Source: a virus. From it: a stretch of 21,236 bases of DNA. Made by a program: the position numbers and the translations under genes. Position 1 is the first letter of the stretch, and the number at the start of each line of letters is the position of its first letter. The stretch is taken from the IMG/VR virus record IMGVR_UViG_3300023118_000029, positions 1-21,236 of that record; one strand, given 5' to 3'. Below, one piece after another: positions 5,253 through 19,103 of the stretch. The notes beneath the pieces are model-generated. The model worked only from the letters and a program-made list of their open reading frames with translations, was not told the origin of the DNA and searched no databases.

Positions 5253-5620
5253 AATGTGTCACGCCTGTTATAGTCTGCGTCTGACTTCTGTTAAAATAAT
5301 TGTTTCGCTATTCTGTAGCTCATCAGTTGACCGCTTTATTAGGTCAATACAATTCGGGATTACTAAAGCTTTCAAAGTCTCATTTACTCGCTGTGTTCAT
5401 CCCCATAAGTCAAATAACATAAAGTCATTTCGTTGGCTAGTACGTACGGTCACGCAAGGCCGTAATGCGGATAATTTAAGTTTATCATTCTGCAATATGA
5501 TTTGAGTTAAAACAACTCGTTAATCTTTCAGAAGCTTTAAATTGTGGTACGCTTCTACTGACTTATGCGCAAGTCCCGAAGAACGTTGCGCTAAGCAGAC
5601 CGCAAAGAGCTTGCGGAACT
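5253..5620. other. Gene-poor 368-base region
   Basis: No convincing intact gene is present on either strand. The right part (5484-5616) is full of hairpins; the whole stretch carries a minus-strand frame interrupted by two stops. I looked for tRNA cloverleaf elements and did not find a T-arm. No exact TAnnTTTG promoter box is visible on the minus strand ahead of the 170-residue gene. The plus-strand open frame over 5206-5505 looks accidental. Confidence 0.6.
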
Positions 5621-7034: not shown

Positions 7035-7267
7035 AAATGCAGGGATAGACCGATAGGCAAACTATATAAGCAACTATTAATGGATAAACATTCAGCGATA
7101 CCAGAAAATAAATAAGGTCTCTATAGGTAAGTTAAAAAGCTGATTTATGGGTTTAAATATACTACAAGATTGATTTAAGTAAAAGATAGTATACGTAGAG
7201 GATACCAGAAAGTATAGAGTAGGGATACTAAGAATTGCATAATATAGATAAATATATTCTAATAGTA

Positions 7268-7297
7268 TTGTTTTTACCATATCTTGTAGTATCTTTG
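7268..7297 (+). promoter_or_regulatory. Rightward early promoter
   Basis: TTG (7268-7270), a 19-base spacer, then TATCTTTG (7290-7297) match both halves of the Bacteroidota promoter (TTTG at -33, TAnnTTTG at -7). The transcript should begin near 7304, about 27 bases before the ATG of the winged-helix gene. Repeated boxes overlap it on both sides. Confidence 0.7.
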
Positions 7298-7307
7298 TAG
7301 TATACTA
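7284..7307. repeat. Operator repeats over the early promoter
   Basis: TTGTAGTAT occurs twice at 7284-7292 and 7295-7303, exactly 11 bases apart, about one turn of the helix. It runs into a perfect palindrome TAGTATACTA (7298-7307) over the likely transcription start. A dimeric DNA-binding protein would be able to block the promoter from here. Confidence 0.55.
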
Positions 7308-7330
7308 AAAGGAGATAAGAGTTATATACT

Positions 7331-7834
7331 ATGAATAAGAAACAGGATAAGATAATTGATTATATAAAGGGGTTCAATATGATTGATGGGGAACCTAAGA
7401 GTATATTGGGTGCTGAGGTTGTTAGGATGAATTACATGAAGCGTTATTACAACTGCTTATATCTTCTTGCTGGATTAAGTCCGTGTGCAAGAAATCTTAT
7501 GGATTACCTTACAGAGGAAATGGATGAAGATAACGAGGTGAGAAGTGATGTTGGAGTTCGGGCCAAATTCATAAGCTTTATAACAAAGATTACTTACGGC
7601 TTAAAAACAAGCCCTACAGGGATAGTTTATGCTGATCCTACTGTTAAGTCTGCTTTTACGGAGTTAAGTTCATCAGGGCTGATTATATCAAGGCGTAAAG
7701 GAGTGTTTGAGGTAAATAAGAAGTTCTTCTTTTTAGGTAAGGAAGAGGATAGGTTAAATGCTATTATTTTAGAGATAAAGCTTAAACCGGAGAATACGAG
7801 TTTTAGATTATTAAAAGTTAGAGATAGAAAATAA
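7331..7834 (+). CDS. Winged-helix protein, RepL-like, possible early regulator or initiator
   Basis: A 167-residue basic protein. Residues about 48-135 follow a winged-helix order: LSPCARNLMDYLTEEM, then VGVRAKFISFITKITYG, then TVKSAFTELSSSGLIISRRK and GVFEVNKKFFFLG. The last part (xxVKxAFxELxxxGLIxxxRxGVFxVNxxFFF) is like the wing of plasmid RepL/replication-type proteins and related regulators. It is the first rightward gene, under a repeat-flanked promoter, so a role in early gene control or replication start fits. Its stop overlaps the start of the HNH gene (TAATG). Fold call moderate; function inferred. Confidence 0.65.
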   Translation: MNKKQDKIIDYIKGFNMIDGEPKSILGAEVVRMNYMKRYYNCLYLLAGLSPCARNLMDYLTEEMDEDNEVRSDVGVRAKFISFITKITYGLKTSPTGIVYADPTVKSAFTELSSSGLIISRRKGVFEVNKKFFFLGKEEDRLNAIILEIKLKPENTSFRLLKVRDRK

Positions 7835-9283: not shown

Positions 9284-9519
9284 CTATCCTAGACAAAATC
9301 GAGAGCGTGGCGCAAGGCCTCATGCTTTTTGAGGGCGAGAAACAGGTGGTGATAAAAGTTTCAATTGAAGAGTCAAAAAAATTACTGGTAGAAATCAAGG
9401 ATGAATATCCAAATTTAAATGTTAAAGTGGGTTGTGTTGTCCCTGAATTTACTAGGAATCATTATCACTTTCTTTTGCATGGTGTTAATTACGTTATTTC
9501 CTTTCCAAATGAAGCGTAG
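9280..9519 (+). CDS. Hypothetical 79-residue protein
   Basis: The product begins MTILDKIESVAQGLMLFEGE and appears as an alternating strand and helix domain (QVVIKVSIEESKKLLVEIKD). It ends FLLHGVNYVISFPNEA. No family is recognised. It overlaps the MazG-like gene by 4 bases and the NinB-like gene by 11 bases, so it lies in the middle of a coupled trio. Confidence 0.65.
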   Translation: MTILDKIESVAQGLMLFEGEKQVVIKVSIEESKKLLVEIKDEYPNLNVKVGCVVPEFTRNHYHFLLHGVNYVISFPNEA

Positions 9520-9985
9520 ACAACCGGCAAGGATAGACAAGAGCAATCCGGATCAACCTATGGTTATATTTTCAAATATAAAGGCTTTTGTGGGCGATTT
9601 GAAGGATTTTCCTGATGGAGCGAGAATATGGGTCGAATTAGAAAGTTATTACCGCAAACGGACTCTTTCACAAAACAACCTACTACATTTCTATTGTGAT
9701 GAAATAGCCCAGGAAACGGGGATGGAAATGTTAGCCGTGAAGGAACAAATGGCTAAGAAGTACTTGACTGTTGAAGTAGTAGATAAAAACTGCAATGTGG
9801 TCGCAGATCCGGAAACTGGCGAAGTGATGACAAGAGTGAAAAGCACAAGTGAACTGGACACTGTAGAATTTGCATCATTCGTTGACAAAATATGGTTGTG
9901 GGCTAATGATTTTTTAAACCTTCAGCTCCCGCAGCCTGATCCAAACCACAAATCAGACAAAAATTTCAAACTTAAATTAAAATAG
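9509..9985 (+). CDS. NinB-like recombination protein
   Basis: The start is the ATG at 9509 (MKRRQPARID), an 11-base overlap with the gene before. A longer frame from 9419 would add a spurious hydrophobic stretch out of frame with that gene. The 158-residue product has YYRKRTLSQNNLLHFYCDEI (R-x-x-S-x-x-QN), then EQMAKKYLTVEVV, and TSELDTVEFASFVDKIWLWA followed by LPQPDP. These are the landmarks of the NinB (YbcN) family: an N-terminal QN-containing helix and a C-terminal helix ending LPDP or LPQP. NinB binds single-stranded DNA and helps phage recombination. Family call by motif. Confidence 0.72.
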   Translation: MKRRQPARIDKSNPDQPMVIFSNIKAFVGDLKDFPDGARIWVELESYYRKRTLSQNNLLHFYCDEIAQETGMEMLAVKEQMAKKYLTVEVVDKNCNVVADPETGEVMTRVKSTSELDTVEFASFVDKIWLWANDFLNLQLPQPDPNHKSDKNFKLKLK

Positions 9986-10370: not shown

Positions 10371-10988
10371 ATGAAAACAAAACAGATTACAAAAAAGCAA
10401 TGCGATGAATTTTTAGCTACAATAGCTGAAATTAAGCCTTGGGATGCAGGTAATGGTCAAATTATAGATGCATGGTATTCTAAGGTCGATGGAAGTTATA
10501 TTACTTTCACTAATATTTCTACAGACATAGCTTGGCTTATCGCTAACGGGATTACAGAACAAATACAGTCTAATGATCCTAGTGACCCTAGAGTTGCTTG
10601 CATCGGCTTCAATCCAGTAGAACAGAAATGGTACGGTTGGTCACATAGGGCTTTTTATGGCTTCGGTATTGGTTCAGAAGTTAAAAAAGGTCACTGTGGT
10701 TATGTATCTACTGACATTAATGACCTAATTGAACGCTCAATTAAATTTTGGAGCGATGAAACTGTCAAAAATGTAGCTGGTATTGCAGCTACTAATGATA
10801 AAGGCATTGAGGGAGTTCAGATAACTTACGAGTACGTTCCTGAAAACGTTTCTAATAAGTCTTTACATGGAACAATAGGACCGCAATTCATGTATCCTCC
10901 TAAGAAATGGGGTAGAGGTGAATGGAAAGCTGAAACCTTAGAAGATGCTAAGCAAATGGCTATAGATTTTTCACATGGAGTTTCATAA
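10371..10988 (+). CDS. Conserved phage protein of unknown function, 205 residues
   Basis: The product has an N-terminal part ACIGFNPVEQKWYGWSHRAF, then YGFGIGSEVKKGHCGYVSTD, a middle insert, and a C-terminal YPPKKWGRGEWKAETLEDAK then MAIDFSHGVS. This order (KWYGWSHRA, YGFGIG, PPKKWGxGEWxAxTLEDAKQMA) is a recurring pattern in unnamed phage proteins across hosts. No enzyme motif is visible and no signal peptide. It has its own A/T-rich leader (AATAGAAAATTATG). Family recognised from memory only; function unknown. Confidence 0.75.
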   Translation: MKTKQITKKQCDEFLATIAEIKPWDAGNGQIIDAWYSKVDGSYITFTNISTDIAWLIANGITEQIQSNDPSDPRVACIGFNPVEQKWYGWSHRAFYGFGIGSEVKKGHCGYVSTDINDLIERSIKFWSDETVKNVAGIAATNDKGIEGVQITYEYVPENVSNKSLHGTIGPQFMYPPKKWGRGEWKAETLEDAKQMAIDFSHGVS

Positions 10989-12046: not shown

Positions 12047-12090
12047 ACCCACTTAAAGAGTCGATAGAATCTTAGCCTTTTCTATTTGTT

Positions 12091-12127
12091 AGCCCTCCGT
12101 TGTGAAACGTGGGGCTTTTTTATTTTT
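12091..12127 (+). terminator. Intrinsic terminator T1
   Basis: AGCCCT (12091-12096) pairs with GGGGCT (12111-12116) and, after one mismatch, CGTT with AACG, closed by a GTGA (GNRA) tetraloop; then six T residues. It ends the operon that includes the 186-residue gene. The T tract runs into the -33 element of the next promoter. Confidence 0.88.
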
Positions 12128-12155
12128 GATGGTTATGTAAATTTACATACATTTG
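12125..12155 (+). promoter_or_regulatory. Promoter P1 between terminators
   Basis: TTTG (12125-12128), a 19-base spacer and TACATTTG (12148-12155) match the Bacteroidota promoter in both halves. A 16-base perfect palindrome lies within the spacer and touches the -7 box. No open reading frame follows; the transcript from about 12162 would meet terminator T2 after some 65 bases. Confidence 0.65.
12134..12149. promoter_or_regulatory. 16-base palindrome, likely operator of P1
   Basis: TATGTAAATTTACATA is a perfect 16-base palindrome lying between the -33 and -7 boxes of promoter P1 and overlapping the first two bases of the -7 box. This is the usual place for a dimeric repressor to bind. Confidence 0.5.
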
Positions 12156-12161
12156 AAAAAG

Positions 12162-12228
12162 CCTCCTTCATTCACGAGCTGTATGTGTGAGCAACCAAAG
12201 TCCTTTCGTAATTGTCAGGGCTTTTTTT
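12162..12228 (+). ncRNA. Candidate small RNA (about 65 nt) between P1 and T2
   Basis: A promoter with both elements at 12125-12155 and a T-tailed hairpin ending at 12228 leave room for a transcript of about 65 nt with no start codon or useful frame. This is the layout of a free-standing small RNA. The start is estimated from the -7 box and could be off by a few bases. The sequence shows the signals; expression is inference. Confidence 0.45.
12199..12228 (+). terminator. Intrinsic terminator T2
   Basis: AGTCCT (12199-12204) pairs with AGGGCT (12217-12222), 6 bp with one G-T pair, loop of 12, then seven T residues (12222-12228). It is weaker than T1 and T3, but the T run is long. Together with promoter P1 it would define a short transcript. 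Confidence 0.65.
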
Positions 12229-12229
12229 G

Positions 12230-12237
12230 TACCTTTG
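12230..12237 (+). promoter_or_regulatory. Promoter-like box P2 after T2
   Basis: TACCTTTG fits TAnnTTTG and begins two bases after the T tract of T2. No TTG stands at the ideal -33 distance (TTTC, 22 bases away, is nearest). A transcript from about 12244 would run through the hairpin ATCCC/GGGAT (12247-12260), itself followed by a short T-rich stretch, to T3. Confidence 0.35.
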
Positions 12238-12287
12238 ACCCAACACATCCCACTCGGGATTCTTTTTGTTAATCTTTCATAAGCTAG

Positions 12288-12324
12288 TGGATAAGGTGAG
12301 GTGGTACTTCCTTATCCATTTTTT
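12288..12324 (+). terminator. Intrinsic terminator T3
   Basis: TGGATAAGG (12288-12296) pairs perfectly with CCTTATCCA (12310-12318), loop of 13, then six T residues (12319-12324). The loop and right arm carry GTGGTACTTCCTTATC (12301-12316), nearly identical to the leader stem-loop at 6131-6148. Confidence 0.88.
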
Positions 12325-12341
12325 ATTTATTTTAACAATTC

Positions 12342-12359
12342 ACTTTGAAACTTCAAAGT
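12342..12359. promoter_or_regulatory. 18-base operator-like palindrome at promoter P3
   Basis: ACTTTGAA-AC-TTCAAAGT (12342-12359): 8 + 8 perfect arms around two bases. It includes the TTTG of the -33 element of P3, so a protein bound here would affect the promoter directly. The small helix-turn-helix protein next to it may bind its own site. Confidence 0.5.
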
Positions 12360-12373
12360 AATCCCTATATTTG
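12344..12373 (+). promoter_or_regulatory. Promoter P3 for the small helix-turn-helix gene
   Basis: TTTG (12344-12347), 18 bases, then TATATTTG (12366-12373). Both elements match the Bacteroidota consensus. The ATG at 12378 is only 5 bases from the -7 box, so the mRNA should begin at or next to the start codon. Confidence 0.7.
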
Positions 12374-12377
12374 TTCC

Positions 12378-12527
12378 ATGCAAACAGAAATAAGAAAAGA
12401 CCTTGTGAAGGTTAGTACCTTCGCCCGTCAAAAAAACAAAAGCACTACTTGGGTTTACGATCAAGCAAAAGCAAAACTAATTACACTGGTATTAATTGAC
12501 GGAGTAAAATTCGTTAAAATAGCATAG
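12378..12527 (+). CDS. Small helix-turn-helix protein (excisionase-like)
   Basis: The start is the ATG at 12378 (MQTEIRKDLVKVSTFARQKN). The frame can be extended to a TTG at 12345, but that lies inside the promoter. The 49-residue product shows the layout of small MerR/excisionase-type DNA-binding proteins: VSTFARQKNKSTTWVYDQAK (helix, turn, helix), then a short strand pair LITLVLIDGVKFVKI. The last strand 'IDGxxFVKI' is typical. It probably regulates nearby promoters, perhaps its own, through the palindrome at 12342-12359. Only 5 bases separate it from the promoter box, so its mRNA is probably leaderless. Confidence 0.7.
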   Translation: MQTEIRKDLVKVSTFARQKNKSTTWVYDQAKAKLITLVLIDGVKFVKIA

Positions 12528-12769: not shown

Positions 12770-13465
12770 ATGGAGTCAGGTAAAATAAAACATAGGAAAG
12801 GCCCAAAATATACTTTGGTAAATAATGAAATACTTAATTCTACTGATTTAAGTTGGAAAGCAAAAGGAATTATGTCATATCTAATAAGCCTTCCTGAAGA
12901 TTGGGAACTCTATAAAACTGAGCTTGTAAAAAGATCTAAAGACGGATATGAATCTATGATTTCTGGATGGAAGGAATTAGAGGCTTTAGGTTATATTGAA
13001 ACAAAAATAATAAAGTCAGGAAACCTTTTTTCTAAGTATGAGTACACAATAAATGACTCTCGCATTCTGGGTTTTACCGAATCGGGAATTACCGAGCCGG
13101 AAAACCCCCAACTAATAATTACTAATAGTAAGGTTAATACTAAACGTATTAACACTAATAATAAAGAAGCTATTTTTTCTTTTGAAGATTTCTGGCAGTT
13201 ATATCCAAAAAAAGTAGCCAAGGAAAAATGTCTAACAAAATTTAAAAATCTTAAATCGAATGAAATACAGGCAATAAAAAGTACACTCACTTCATTTTTG
13301 AATTATTACCCATTTCCTACGTATTCTCATCCTGATCCATTATCTTATCTTAATGCAAAAAGATGGCAGGATGAGATACCAGTCCAACCAACACAAGCAG
13401 AAGAACATTCAGTATTAACCAAAGAACAACAAGATGAGCTTGACGCCTATTTCAACAGATTCTAG
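12770..13465 (+). CDS. Replisome-organizer-like protein with winged-helix domain
   Basis: A 231-residue protein. Residues 13-80 are a winged helix of the type found in phage replication organizers: YTLVNNEILNSTDLSWKAKG, then IMSYLISLPEDWELYKTELV and SMISGWKELEALGYIETKI. A flexible middle part follows. The C-terminal part begins FEDFWQLYPKKVAKEKCLTK (about 138 on), the FWxxYPKK pattern common in phage replication proteins and helicase loaders, and includes PDPLSYLNAKRWQDE. It overlaps the primase-helicase gene by 32 bases, which fits a protein that loads or recruits the helicase. The role is inferred from domains and position. Confidence 0.72.
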   Translation: MESGKIKHRKGPKYTLVNNEILNSTDLSWKAKGIMSYLISLPEDWELYKTELVKRSKDGYESMISGWKELEALGYIETKIIKSGNLFSKYEYTINDSRILGFTESGITEPENPQLIITNSKVNTKRINTNNKEAIFSFEDFWQLYPKKVAKEKCLTKFKNLKSNEIQAIKSTLTSFLNYYPFPTYSHPDPLSYLNAKRWQDEIPVQPTQAEEHSVLTKEQQDELDAYFNRF

Positions 13466-15533
13466 TTTACAATTCATGCCGGTTAAGGCAAATAAGAAAC
13501 CAATTCATGATGGATGGCAAAATACAAAGAGGGATTATGATTTTTCAAAGGCCGAAGCGATTGGTTTAGTTTGCGGTTCCATATCCGGTAATGTAGAAGT
13601 TTTAGATATAGATTTAAAATATGATAATTCAAAAACTCTTTTTAAAAATTTAAAATTAGCTATCAAGGATGCTAATCCTAATCTCTTAAAAAAGATGGTC
13701 GTTCAGGAAACTCAAAGCGGAGGGTATCATTTTATTTACAAATGTGCCGCTATAAGCGGGAGTTTAAAATTAGCATCAAGATCAACTATCGAATCAGAGC
13801 GTGAAGAAACTTATAAAAAATCTTACATACACAATTACAATGAACTTGGACCTCAAAATTTACCAGAAGCCGAACGTGTCGAGAAATCAGTACTAGCTGC
13901 AGTTAAGTCACGAGACAACGACAAAGTAAGAGTTCTTCTGGAAACAAGAGGTGAAAAGGGACAGATATTAGTTGAACCATCGCCCGGTTATAAACTTGTT
14001 TTTGGAAATTTCGATTCAATACAGACTATAACTCCTGAAGAACGAGAAACCCTTTTTAATATTTGCTACAGTTTTAATGAGGTTTATAAGGAAAATTACC
14101 AAGAGAAAAAACTTCCAAAGAAAGAAACCAAAGGACTTACACCATCTGAAGATTTTAACGAACGTGGTGATGTAGTTGGATTGCTAATGGAGCATGGCTG
14201 GAAACAGGTGGGTAAACGAGGCTCTAAGATTTTAATGAAAAGGCCTGGTGATACAAAAGCAGAAAGTTCGGGTAATTACGACATTGAAAAGAAATGGTTC
14301 AGTGTATTCACTACTTCCACAGAATTTGAAGCTCAAACACCGTATAAGCCTTACGCAGTCTACACAATGCTTAAATGTGGTGGTGACTACTCAAAAGTCA
14401 CTAAGGTACTCGCAGATGCAGGGTATGGTGATAAACTAGAAACATTAGCTGATTCTAAAATCACCGTTCCTAGTATTGTTGACATGACAGATGATGATTT
14501 GTCTTTCTTGGCCACTGAAGCAGATTATGATGAATATTTGGCCAAGTGGAGAAACGGAACATTTGAGAAAGGTAAATCTACAGGAATGGAAGGCCTGGAT
14601 AAACATTTCCTTTTCAAGGATGGAGATTTGGTTATCATCAACGGTATTGACAACGTAGGTAAATCAACAGTGATTTGGTATCTGGCAATGTTGGCAGCTA
14701 TACTCCATGGATGGAAGTGGTTAATTTTTAGTTCTGAAAATAAAGTTGGAGGTATTGTCCGTAAGCTGATCGAATTTTATTGGGACAAACCGATATCTGA
14801 AATTACAGATGAACAATTTCGGGAAGCTAAGCAATTTGTAAAGGACCATTTTGATATAATCAAAGTTTCTGATAAGCTATTCAACTACCAAGACATCCTG
14901 AATATGCACACGAAGGCTTCTAAGAAGAAAAAATACAAAGGTTTGATGATTGACCCATACAACTCGTTAAAAGTTGATGTGCCGGCTAAAAACAAGCAAA
15001 ATACGTATGAGTATCACTATGAGGCAGCAAGTGTTATCCAGCTTTACGGAAAGAATAATGATTTGTCGATTTATCTTAACTGTCACGTAGGGACAACAGG
15101 CGCTAGGAACAAAGATAAAAATGGATTTACTCTTGCTCCGCAGAAAGAAGATACCGAAATGGGAGTTATGTTCGCCAATAAAGCAGACGAGTTTTTGACG
15201 ATACACAGGGTTACTCAGCATGAAACTGAATTTATGTATACAGAGATACACGTTCGTAAAGTTAAGGAGATCGAAACAGGCGGTAGGGTCACTTCACTTT
15301 TAAAACCAGTCTTGCTTAGGGGTAATTTGGGAATGACAGGATTTAATTATCATGCAAGCAAGTTATCTGGTTCATTTGGGTACAATCCAATTAGACAATG
15401 GCACGACTCGAAATTAAAAGCCGGACAAAAAAGTATTTTTGATGAACCTGAAGATTTATTCAATGTGGTTATGCCACACCAATTACCAGTAGAAGTTAAT
15501 AACATTCAAGATGACGGAGATTTACCATTTTAA
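13434..15533 (+). CDS. Primase-polymerase / DnaB-like helicase fusion
   Basis: A 699-residue replication protein. The N-terminal part (about 15-215) is a bifunctional Prim-Pol domain: PVKANKKPIHDGW, then VLDID with D58 and D60 as metal-binding residues, SGGYHF (95-100) with H99, and RGEKGQILVEPSPGYKL. A middle linker domain (245-340) follows. From about 380 is a DnaB/RecA-type helicase: STGMEGLDKHF, Walker A GIDNVGKST (404-412), Walker B LMID (D507) and NCHVGTTG as a sensor. Such fusions unwind DNA and prime it. The ATG at 13434 gives a 32-base overlap with the gene before; the ATG at 13476, after that gene's stop, is an alternative start. Tail ends DDGDLPF, a possible SSB-like docking peptide. 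Confidence 0.85.
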   Translation: MSLTPISTDSSLQFMPVKANKKPIHDGWQNTKRDYDFSKAEAIGLVCGSISGNVEVLDIDLKYDNSKTLFKNLKLAIKDANPNLLKKMVVQETQSGGYHFIYKCAAISGSLKLASRSTIESEREETYKKSYIHNYNELGPQNLPEAERVEKSVLAAVKSRDNDKVRVLLETRGEKGQILVEPSPGYKLVFGNFDSIQTITPEERETLFNICYSFNEVYKENYQEKKLPKKETKGLTPSEDFNERGDVVGLLMEHGWKQVGKRGSKILMKRPGDTKAESSGNYDIEKKWFSVFTTSTEFEAQTPYKPYAVYTMLKCGGDYSKVTKVLADAGYGDKLETLADSKITVPSIVDMTDDDLSFLATEADYDEYLAKWRNGTFEKGKSTGMEGLDKHFLFKDGDLVIINGIDNVGKSTVIWYLAMLAAILHGWKWLIFSSENKVGGIVRKLIEFYWDKPISEITDEQFREAKQFVKDHFDIIKVSDKLFNYQDILNMHTKASKKKKYKGLMIDPYNSLKVDVPAKNKQNTYEYHYEAASVIQLYGKNNDLSIYLNCHVGTTGARNKDKNGFTLAPQKEDTEMGVMFANKADEFLTIHRVTQHETEFMYTEIHVRKVKEIETGGRVTSLLKPVLLRGNLGMTGFNYHASKLSGSFGYNPIRQWHDSKLKAGQKSIFDEPEDLFNVVMPHQLPVEVNNIQDDGDLPF

Positions 15534-17475: not shown

Positions 17476-17529
17476 ATGGATATTTTACCTAATTTTATCA
17501 AAAATCTAAGAAACAATAAAAAAGTATGA
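17476..17529 (+). CDS. 17-residue leader ORF coupled to groEL
   Basis: ATG at 17476 opens an 18-codon frame (MDILPNFIKNLRNNKKV) whose TGA overlaps the groEL ATG (ATGA at 17526-17529). It has the usual A/T-rich leader (TTGATTATG). A coupled mini-ORF could serve to deliver ribosomes to groEL, or may be translated for its own sake. It may also be chance. Confidence 0.4.
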   Translation: MDILPNFIKNLRNNKKV

Positions 17530-19103
17530 CAAAATCAATCAAGTTTGGGGAAGAAGGACGTAAAATCCTTATGTCTGGTGTAGACCAGCTCGCAAACGCA
17601 GTAAAATCCACATTAGGAGCAAAAGGAAAGAATGTTATCATCGGAACTGATTATGGTTTGCCGATCATAACAAAGGATGGTGTGACGGTCGCTAAAAGCA
17701 TTATGCTTCCTGATGAAATGGAAAACATGGGTGCTGCACTAGTGAAAGAGGTTGCTTCTAAAACTGCCGAGGTAGCAGGGGACGGAACCACTTCGGCTTC
17801 AGTATTGGCGCAAGCGATTCTTAAAATGGGAATTGAAGCCGTTGATGGTGGTGCAAATCAAATGATGTTAAAATCAGGAATTGACAAAGCAACAAAAGCT
17901 GTAGTGGCCAACCTTGCTAAAATCTCAAAACCGATAAAAGGGAATAAGCAACTTATCAGCATAGCTTCAATTTCAGCGAACAACGATCCTGTAATTGGAA
18001 AGTTAATCGGTGAGGCTGTAGGGCACGTAGGTGTTAACGGAATTATCAACATCGAAGAAAGCGGTACTATGGAAACATACGTAACTAAAATCGATGGATT
18101 GAAATTTGGACAAGGGTACATCGATAAACACTTCGTAGTTGGCGCAAAGGAAAAAGTAGAGTTACTAAATCCTGTCATTTTGATGTACGATAAAAAAATC
18201 ACCAAAATGGCCGAAGTACTTCCTTTATTGGAGCAGGTAGCTAACGAACGTAGATCGTTATTGATTATCGCTGAGGACGTAGAAGGAGAAGCTTTGAAAT
18301 CTCTTATCGTAAACAACATTCAAAAAACGATTCAGGTTTGCTGCGTTAAAACGCCTGGGTATGGAGTTAACCGTTACGACCTAATGAACGACATTGCTGT
18401 TCTCACTGGCGGTATGTTCATTTCCGAAGACTTAGGTATCCGTCTTGAAGATGTGAACTTGGGTAACTTAGGACACGCTCAAAAAATCACCATCTACAAA
18501 GATAAAACGATCATTGCTGGTGGCGCAATTCAGAAAGAAGTTTTAGATGTGAAAGTCGAGGACTTGAAGGAAATGATTAAGCATCCTAAAGACAATGACG
18601 TTGCATTCTTGAAGTACCGTCTAGCCAACTTAACGAACGGTGTTGCCTCAATTCGTGTTGGTGGATCTACCGAAGTTGAAGTCAAAGAAAAGATTGACCG
18701 TATAGATGATGCTTTGAACGCTACTATCAGCTCATTAGAGGAAGGATATATCGCTGGTGGTGGTTGTGGCTTCGTAAAATGTTTAAGCTGCTTAGAAGAC
18801 TTAAAATTAACCGATAAAGATGAAGCTACTGGTGTTGGGATTATCCTTGAAGCAATCAAAACTCCTTTTATGCAGATTTTACAGAATGGAGGCCTTGATG
18901 GGGGAGATTTTCTGCAGAACGTTCGGGATGATGACTACGGTATGGGTGTAGACATCAAAACAGGTGAATATGTAAACTTGCTAAAAGCAGGAATCATTGA
19001 TCCAGCTAAAGTTTCCCGTGTAGCTCTTGAAAACGCAGCTTCCATCGCAGGAACGTTTTTAACAACAGATTGTATCATTTTAAACATTTCAGATTACGAA
19101 TAA
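17526..19103 (+). CDS. groEL: Phage GroEL chaperonin
   Basis: A 525-residue full-length chaperonin; all three domains are present. Equatorial: ITKDGVTVAK with D51, AGDGTTS (84-90) with D86 (E. coli D87), RIDDALNAT with D395 (E. coli D398) and GGG at 411-413. Apical: GQGYIDKHFVV (195-205), LLIIAEDVEGEAL. Intermediate: VGGSTEVEVKEK. These ATP-binding and hydrolysis residues look intact, so it should be active. It ends TTDCIILNISDYE and lacks the GGM repeat tail of bacterial GroEL. In the substrate site E. coli YLSPYF reads YIDKHF. groES follows with a one-base overlap (TAATG). Probably folds phage structural or packaging proteins with the co-chaperonin next to it. Confidence 0.95.
   Translation: MTKSIKFGEEGRKILMSGVDQLANAVKSTLGAKGKNVIIGTDYGLPIITKDGVTVAKSIMLPDEMENMGAALVKEVASKTAEVAGDGTTSASVLAQAILKMGIEAVDGGANQMMLKSGIDKATKAVVANLAKISKPIKGNKQLISIASISANNDPVIGKLIGEAVGHVGVNGIINIEESGTMETYVTKIDGLKFGQGYIDKHFVVGAKEKVELLNPVILMYDKKITKMAEVLPLLEQVANERRSLLIIAEDVEGEALKSLIVNNIQKTIQVCCVKTPGYGVNRYDLMNDIAVLTGGMFISEDLGIRLEDVNLGNLGHAQKITIYKDKTIIAGGAIQKEVLDVKVEDLKEMIKHPKDNDVAFLKYRLANLTNGVASIRVGGSTEVEVKEKIDRIDDALNATISSLEEGYIAGGGCGFVKCLSCLEDLKLTDKDEATGVGIILEAIKTPFMQILQNGGLDGGDFLQNVRDDDYGMGVDIKTGEYVNLLKAGIIDPAKVSRVALENAASIAGTFLTTDCIILNISDYE

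Follow-up and report, generated by a model that had tools for sequence, protein, structure and literature searches.

A terminator-promoter array ahead of a phage replication operon, with a likely small RNA gene and a probably leaderless regulator promoter

We analyzed a 21,236-bp fragment of an uncultured virus from IMG/VR (hereafter the window), and we find that its positions 12047-12377 hold a real, non-random array of intrinsic terminators and promoter boxes. Judged from its sequence, the region is most likely made up of a phage regulatory small RNA (sRNA) and an autoregulated switch. With a probability of about 0.55, we favor a reading in which it forms a regulatory boundary ahead of the phage replication operon, consisting of a terminator (T1), an RNA gene with its own promoter and terminator (P2-RNA 2-T3), and a leaderless promoter with operators (P3). 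According to this reading, T1 would end the upstream operon, and P2, which has a Bacteroidota sigma-ABfr box, would drive an independent noncoding RNA that ends in the T3 hairpin and offers its GUGGU loop to a partner. RNA 2 might then act in trans, on functions of the phage or of its host, either by pairing or through a protein that binds that loop. From P3, a leaderless mRNA would begin at the start codon of a small, putatively DNA-binding regulator, with the replication genes next; inverted repeats over P1 and P3 would be the likely operators of this regulator, and P1-T2 would represent either a further RNA or a leader that is translated.

Genes in the window run leftward over ~1-6.7 kb and rightward over 7.3-21.2 kb (Table 1). 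The host of the phage is most likely a member of the Bacteroidota, given its TAnnTTTG boxes and its distant relatives among Cellulophaga phages. Elsewhere in the window, the gene at 10371-10988 has a strong Pfam match to Tad6, an inhibitor of type I Thoeris (E 3e-37), and is a likely anti-defence gene. An AT-rich stretch at 7090-7330, located at the GC-skew turn, contains repeated GTAGTAT/AGTATAC-like words and, at 7290, a TATCTTTG box; at 7331 lies a RepL-like gene with a weak match (E 0.003), and this stretch is a possible replication origin. A 368-bp gene-poor gap at 5253-5620 contains several inverted repeats, and neither ARAGORN nor Rfam found a tRNA or RNA family in it; it may be what remains of a tRNA, now degenerate, or of another RNA.

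Table 1. Positions of features in the window and of comparable elements in related phages
Feature	Position	Strand	Remarks
NinB-like gene	9419-9985		
T1, intrinsic terminator	12091-12122 (hairpin 12091-12116)	+	-14.0 kcal/mol, z -4.2
P1 -33 element	12125-12128	+	TTTG, 19-nt spacer
Palindrome in P1 spacer	12134-12149	none	TATGTAAATTTACATA, perfect, 16 bp; putative operator
P1 -7 box	12148-12155	+	TACATTTG; predicted +1 at 12160
Candidate RNA 1 (P1-T2)	12160-12229	+	~70 nt; small RNA or leader
T2, intrinsic terminator	12197-12229 (hairpin 12197-12224)	+	8-bp stem, 12-nt loop, T-run
P2 -7 box	12230-12237	+	TACCTTTG; no -33 TTTG; predicted +1 at 12242; box kept in L160, L161, L169
Candidate RNA 2 (P2-T3)	12242-12323	+	~82 nt, no ORF; fold z -3.0; counterparts in three relatives
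Small 5' hairpin of RNA 2	12247-12260	+	AUCCC-ACUC-GGGAU; absent from relatives
T3, terminator hairpin	12286-12325 (hairpin 12286-12320)	+	GUGGU(A) loop (GTGGT 12301-12305)
GUGGU loops at T3 and counterparts			window GAG-GUGGUA-CUU; L160 GGGAU-GUGGU-GUCUC; L161 CAGAG-GUGGUA-AUCUG; L169 ACGGU-GUGGUU-ACUGU
Inverted repeat over P3 -33 element	12342-12359	none	ACTTTGAA-AC-TTCAAAGT; candidate operator, from sequence; TTTG 12344-12347
P3 -7 box	12366-12373	+	TATATTTG; starts exactly 12 nt before ATG (leaderless)
Putative DNA-binding regulator, 49 aa	12378-12527	+	leaderless; aligns with small HTH_17-like proteins of relatives
Replication initiation protein	12770-13465	+	first large gene of downstream operon; phrog_270, E 6e-20
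Prim-pol/DnaB-like primase-helicase	13434-15533	+	query for finding relatives
GroEL-like ORF	17526-19103		by its sequence
Pseudoknotted leaders in relatives	L160 10296-10420; L161 12960-13080; L168 10322 and 12154; L169 10545; L159 10641; L172 6882; L175 6888; L187 6630; L182 6843; L185 6254; L181 13890; L017 3277; L196 7057		strongest: L159 10641, L160 10296, L168 10322, L172-L175, L187

All three hairpin-plus-T-run terminators that a preliminary description had placed in 12047-12377 are present, compared with a mean of 0.20 in dinucleotide shuffles, and at least three were observed in 0 of 300 shuffles. One terminator scan, which allowed loops of up to 8 nt, found T1 and T3, missed T2 because its loop exceeds that limit, and added a weak hairpin at 12247-12260, which we interpret as belonging to the 5' part of RNA 2. 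T1 most likely terminates the upstream operon, in which the last gene runs to 12046. The three TAnnTTTG boxes described before (12148, 12230, and 12366) were likewise recovered, together with a fourth at 12121, inside the T1 tail, that had not been listed; the minus strand of the region has none. The shuffle mean is 0.375 boxes, with a probability of 0.0055 for at least three and 0.00075 for at least four, so the earlier chance estimate of about 0.2 per strand was slightly low while the excess over chance holds. When 331-bp windows were slid along the sequence, at least three boxes were found in 31 of 2091 on the plus strand and 0 of 2091 on the minus strand. As had been claimed, TTTG lies at the expected distance upstream of the P1 and P3 boxes (19 and 18 nt, respectively). 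The -7 element of F. johnsoniae spans -12 to -5 (PMC6847099), and by this spacing rule (PMC6847099) we predicted the +1 positions of P1, P2, and P3; the P1 and P2 starts, at 12160 and 12242, agree with the 12160 and 12244 given earlier.

The window has no DNA match among GenBank phages, where no close DNA relative was found, and GenBank phage helicases gave only distant matches, the best from Cellulophaga phages, with at most 36% identity. Helicase searches of viral contigs yielded 26 and then 79 loci; a search of genome contigs found no relative. A scan with the small regulator (A4) matched only the L002 and L169 contigs, and a scan for TTTTTTATCAACA-N-TTGACA found only two loci with the layout, both already known. 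A pattern scan of viral contigs for a box, GAGGTGGT, and a T-run gave, among the matches listed, almost exclusively chance occurrences, and L082 was rejected as a counterpart since it is antisense and ahead of an unrelated gene.

P2-T3 is the best-supported candidate small-RNA gene of the region and most likely a single phage sRNA gene; the core of the case is the kept layout and loop, the 40-nt spacing of the relatives, and the lack of an ORF. At the same place in three relatives, L160 (identical to L001), L161 (identical to L002), and L169, we observed a box, 40 nt, a terminator hairpin, and a T-run. The distance from box to stem is exactly 40 nt in all three and 56 nt in the window, whose RNA 2 is longer by 16 nt, mostly through an extra 14-nt 5' hairpin, and the box is TAnnTTTA, not TAnnTTTG, in L161 and L169. 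Stems at the T3 position are largely unrelated in sequence among the four viruses, and GUGGU is present in every loop. Of 236 terminators predicted in ~1.04 Mb of relatives, 5 have GTGGT in the loop, four of them at the RNA 2 site and the fifth (L225) elsewhere. In the same four viruses, the only ones with it, the GUGGU unit is found directly upstream of the leaderless small regulator; its place is taken by a different RNA in L006, L168, and L166 and by a terminator alone in L007. The helicases of L160 and L161 are 90% identical, yet there is no blastn match in the RNA 2 region, suggesting that the layout outlives the letters, with spacing and loop persisting. Comparison of relatives is what establishes this layout, the box-to-stem spacing, and the conserved loop, as well as the leaderless spacing at P3.

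The counterparts of RNA 2 fold with z scores of -3.6 (L161), -4.3 (L169), and -2.0 (L160), and neither RNA 2 nor any of the three has a usable ORF. A four-way MAFFT alignment of the RNAs was left out of the covariation counts because the loop was misplaced in it. No gathering-level Rfam match was found in the window, and a relaxed search, with the FopS family included, gave chance-level hits only. Pairing of RNA 1 and RNA 2 with each other, with the regulator mRNA, or with gene starts in the window was not clearly above shuffles (p = 0.05 for RNA 1 with RNA 2, and 0.17-0.27 with the regulator mRNA). We also weighed and rejected the idea that the GUGGU loop pairs with the ACCAUG preceding the regulator, since the ACC would be missing from a leaderless mRNA. 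As a separate observation, L006 (3531-3650) and L168 (6742-6861) have a nearly identical RNA upstream of the regulator, with one U/C difference that keeps the pairing of GUCUUUCG with CGAAAGAU/C and is thus a compatible change.

P1 is a better promoter than P2, with both elements present and a palindrome in its spacer. This 16-base palindrome, noted before, is perfect and the longest of its kind in the 21-kb window; since ~0.6 palindromes like it are expected per window by a rough base-composition estimate, it is mainly its position that is notable. RNA 1 folds no better than shuffles (z about -0.3), no counterpart was found among the relatives compared, and an ATG at +24 opens a 29-codon ORF that crosses T2, a length at chance level, being equalled in 12% of shuffles. 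Where the preliminary description had proposed one or two small RNAs and a search of relatives for the hairpins, P2-T3 gains from the box, spacing, terminator hairpin, and GUGGU loop kept in L160, L161, and L169. P1-T2 gains no such support and may represent another sRNA or else a leader that is translated.

P3 is a predicted leaderless mRNA promoter rather than one for a small RNA, its +1 falling at 12378, the A of the ATG of the 49-aa gene. The 49-aa protein has no significant family match of its own. We compared 11 loci that have a small regulator-like gene ahead of replication genes, some of them near-duplicates, amounting to about six separate groups with several kinds of small protein. 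In 10 of these, the distance from the start of the P3-type box to the ATG is 12 nt, and in the other it is 13 nt. Leaders shorter than 10 nt are rare in Bacteroidota. They make up approximately 3.7% of 5' UTRs in B. thetaiotaomicron (PMC7366714), and among predicted F. johnsoniae transcripts 87% have a leader longer than 10 nt (PMC6847099), indicating that the leaderless layout is a kept feature. The inverted repeat over the P3 -33 element was absent from the preliminary description, and at its place L006, L007, L165, L166, and L168 have ATTTCA-N7-TGAAAT. The presence of inverted repeats over the P1 spacer and the P3 -33 element, and of another in relatives, suggests autoregulation of the regulator, and P3 is probably a leaderless, autoregulated promoter. 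We infer that the region is transcribed and that the regulator binds there.

Many H-type pseudoknots are found in relatives between a box and an operon ATG. Stem 1 is often at +1, the loop pairs with the stretch just 3' of it, and a T-run often comes next; in the strongest, whose stem stacking amounts to -33 to -48 kcal/mol, the start is at +1 or +2. Eight pseudoknots at -30 or better were seen, compared with 0-1 per shuffled set, whereas a loose +1 scan at -21 kcal/mol was noise (38 hits versus 31 in shuffled loci). These leaders have no Rfam match, and they may form a new class of leaders or attenuators in Bacteroidota phages. The best pseudoknot in 12047-12377 is at -30.1, with 7 of 60 shuffles equally good, and no strong pseudoknot starts at the P1 or P2 +1. 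At approximately 4932-4950 in L008 and 2101-2119 in L012, a common AAGGCATAGTTTTTGTAAG stands directly before a pseudoknot RNA and resembles a sigma-54 -24/-12 element, not TAnnTTTG.

An attenuator is an unlikely alternative, in which the P1 and/or P2 transcripts would be leaders of the regulator-replication operon and T2 and T3 regulated terminators, with read-through triggered by translation of the 29-codon ORF across T2 or by binding at the GUGGU loop. That ORF is what such a mechanism would use, and in related phages most of the pseudoknotted leaders inspected, which lie directly ahead of the operon and often have a terminator, contain an ORF of 10-38 codons that opens at +12 to +40. Against it stand the chance-level length of the RNA 1 ORF, the lack of a usable one in RNA 2 and its counterparts, and the separate promoter P3 just downstream, with which read-through is unneeded. 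We consider it unlikely that the region is a plain operon boundary, with tandem terminators as insulation, P3 as the sole working promoter, and P1 and P2 as chance or weak boxes. P2 has no -33 element, P1-T2 is neither conserved nor well folded, and in L007 the terminator and P3 are present with no box upstream, all as this would predict; however, a box lies 40-85 nt before the last terminator in eight of nine relatives (shuffles 2-21% each), and the equal 40-nt spacing in three relatives and the conserved loop also argue against it.

Because relatives have pseudoknots at or near the homologous place (L157, L159, L163, L172-L175, L182-L187, L196, and L198), we also considered exchange of an RNA cassette. 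The promoter-RNA-terminator unit before the replication operon, often with a leaderless regulator, would be kept while its sequence is replaced between close relatives, with GUGGU-hairpin or pseudoknotted RNAs swapped in as an RNA-based specificity module for immunity or lysis timing; we regard this as quite doubtful. It is very improbable that the region is an origin in which short transcripts prime replication and the hairpins are origin structures. It does lie directly upstream of the initiator and primase-helicase genes, but no iterons were found, the GC skew turns near 7 kb and not here, and in relatives, RNA leaders of this sort are found ahead of unrelated genes as well.

The favored reading, a small RNA gene beside an autoregulated leaderless promoter, has several likenesses among known systems. 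Validated Bacteroides intergenic sRNAs have a promoter and an intrinsic terminator (PMC7366714), and FopS sRNAs, 65-70 nt long, combine an unpaired 5' portion with a hairpin terminator (PMC11697453). By the features of Bacteroidota intergenic sRNAs, P1 and P2 both have a sigma-ABfr -7 box at the right distance, and P1 alone has the -33 TTTG; P2-T3 has a terminator 50-100 nt downstream and no ORF, and P1-T2 contains the 29-codon ORF. RNA 2 is like GibS/FopS-type Bacteroides sRNAs in its sigma-ABfr-type promoter, their 65-80 nt size class, largely unpaired 5' part, and intrinsic terminator hairpin. Unlike them, it is phage-encoded, of other sequence, and without an Rfam match, and it is conserved in the terminator loop, not in a 5' seed. 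In the immunity regions of phage P4 (CI RNA) and of P1/P7 (c4 antisense RNA), a replication or antirepressor operon is preceded by short RNAs and terminators. The window region, with its terminators, has the same position ahead of a replication operon, but no internal complementary target was found in the window and no Rfam match, c4 RNA being listed as RF01695 (PMC2864571). The small regulator, the inverted repeats over its promoter, the replication genes that come next, and the variability of the module likewise resemble a lambdoid cro/cI switch. In lambdoid phages, inverted repeats cover the promoter of a small regulator gene that lies ahead of the replication genes, and the module differs between otherwise similar phages. 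The window-type regulator differs in being leaderless, HTH_17-like or unassigned, and preceded by an RNA gene.

Our literature searches found no small RNAs of Bacteroidota phages, and these seem hardly described. The larger set of pseudoknotted leaders from the same comparison looks worth a separate study. Most mRNAs of Bacteroidota have leaders, and a short RNA with a conserved terminator loop beside a strictly leaderless regulator would be a compact test case for replication timing in these phages.
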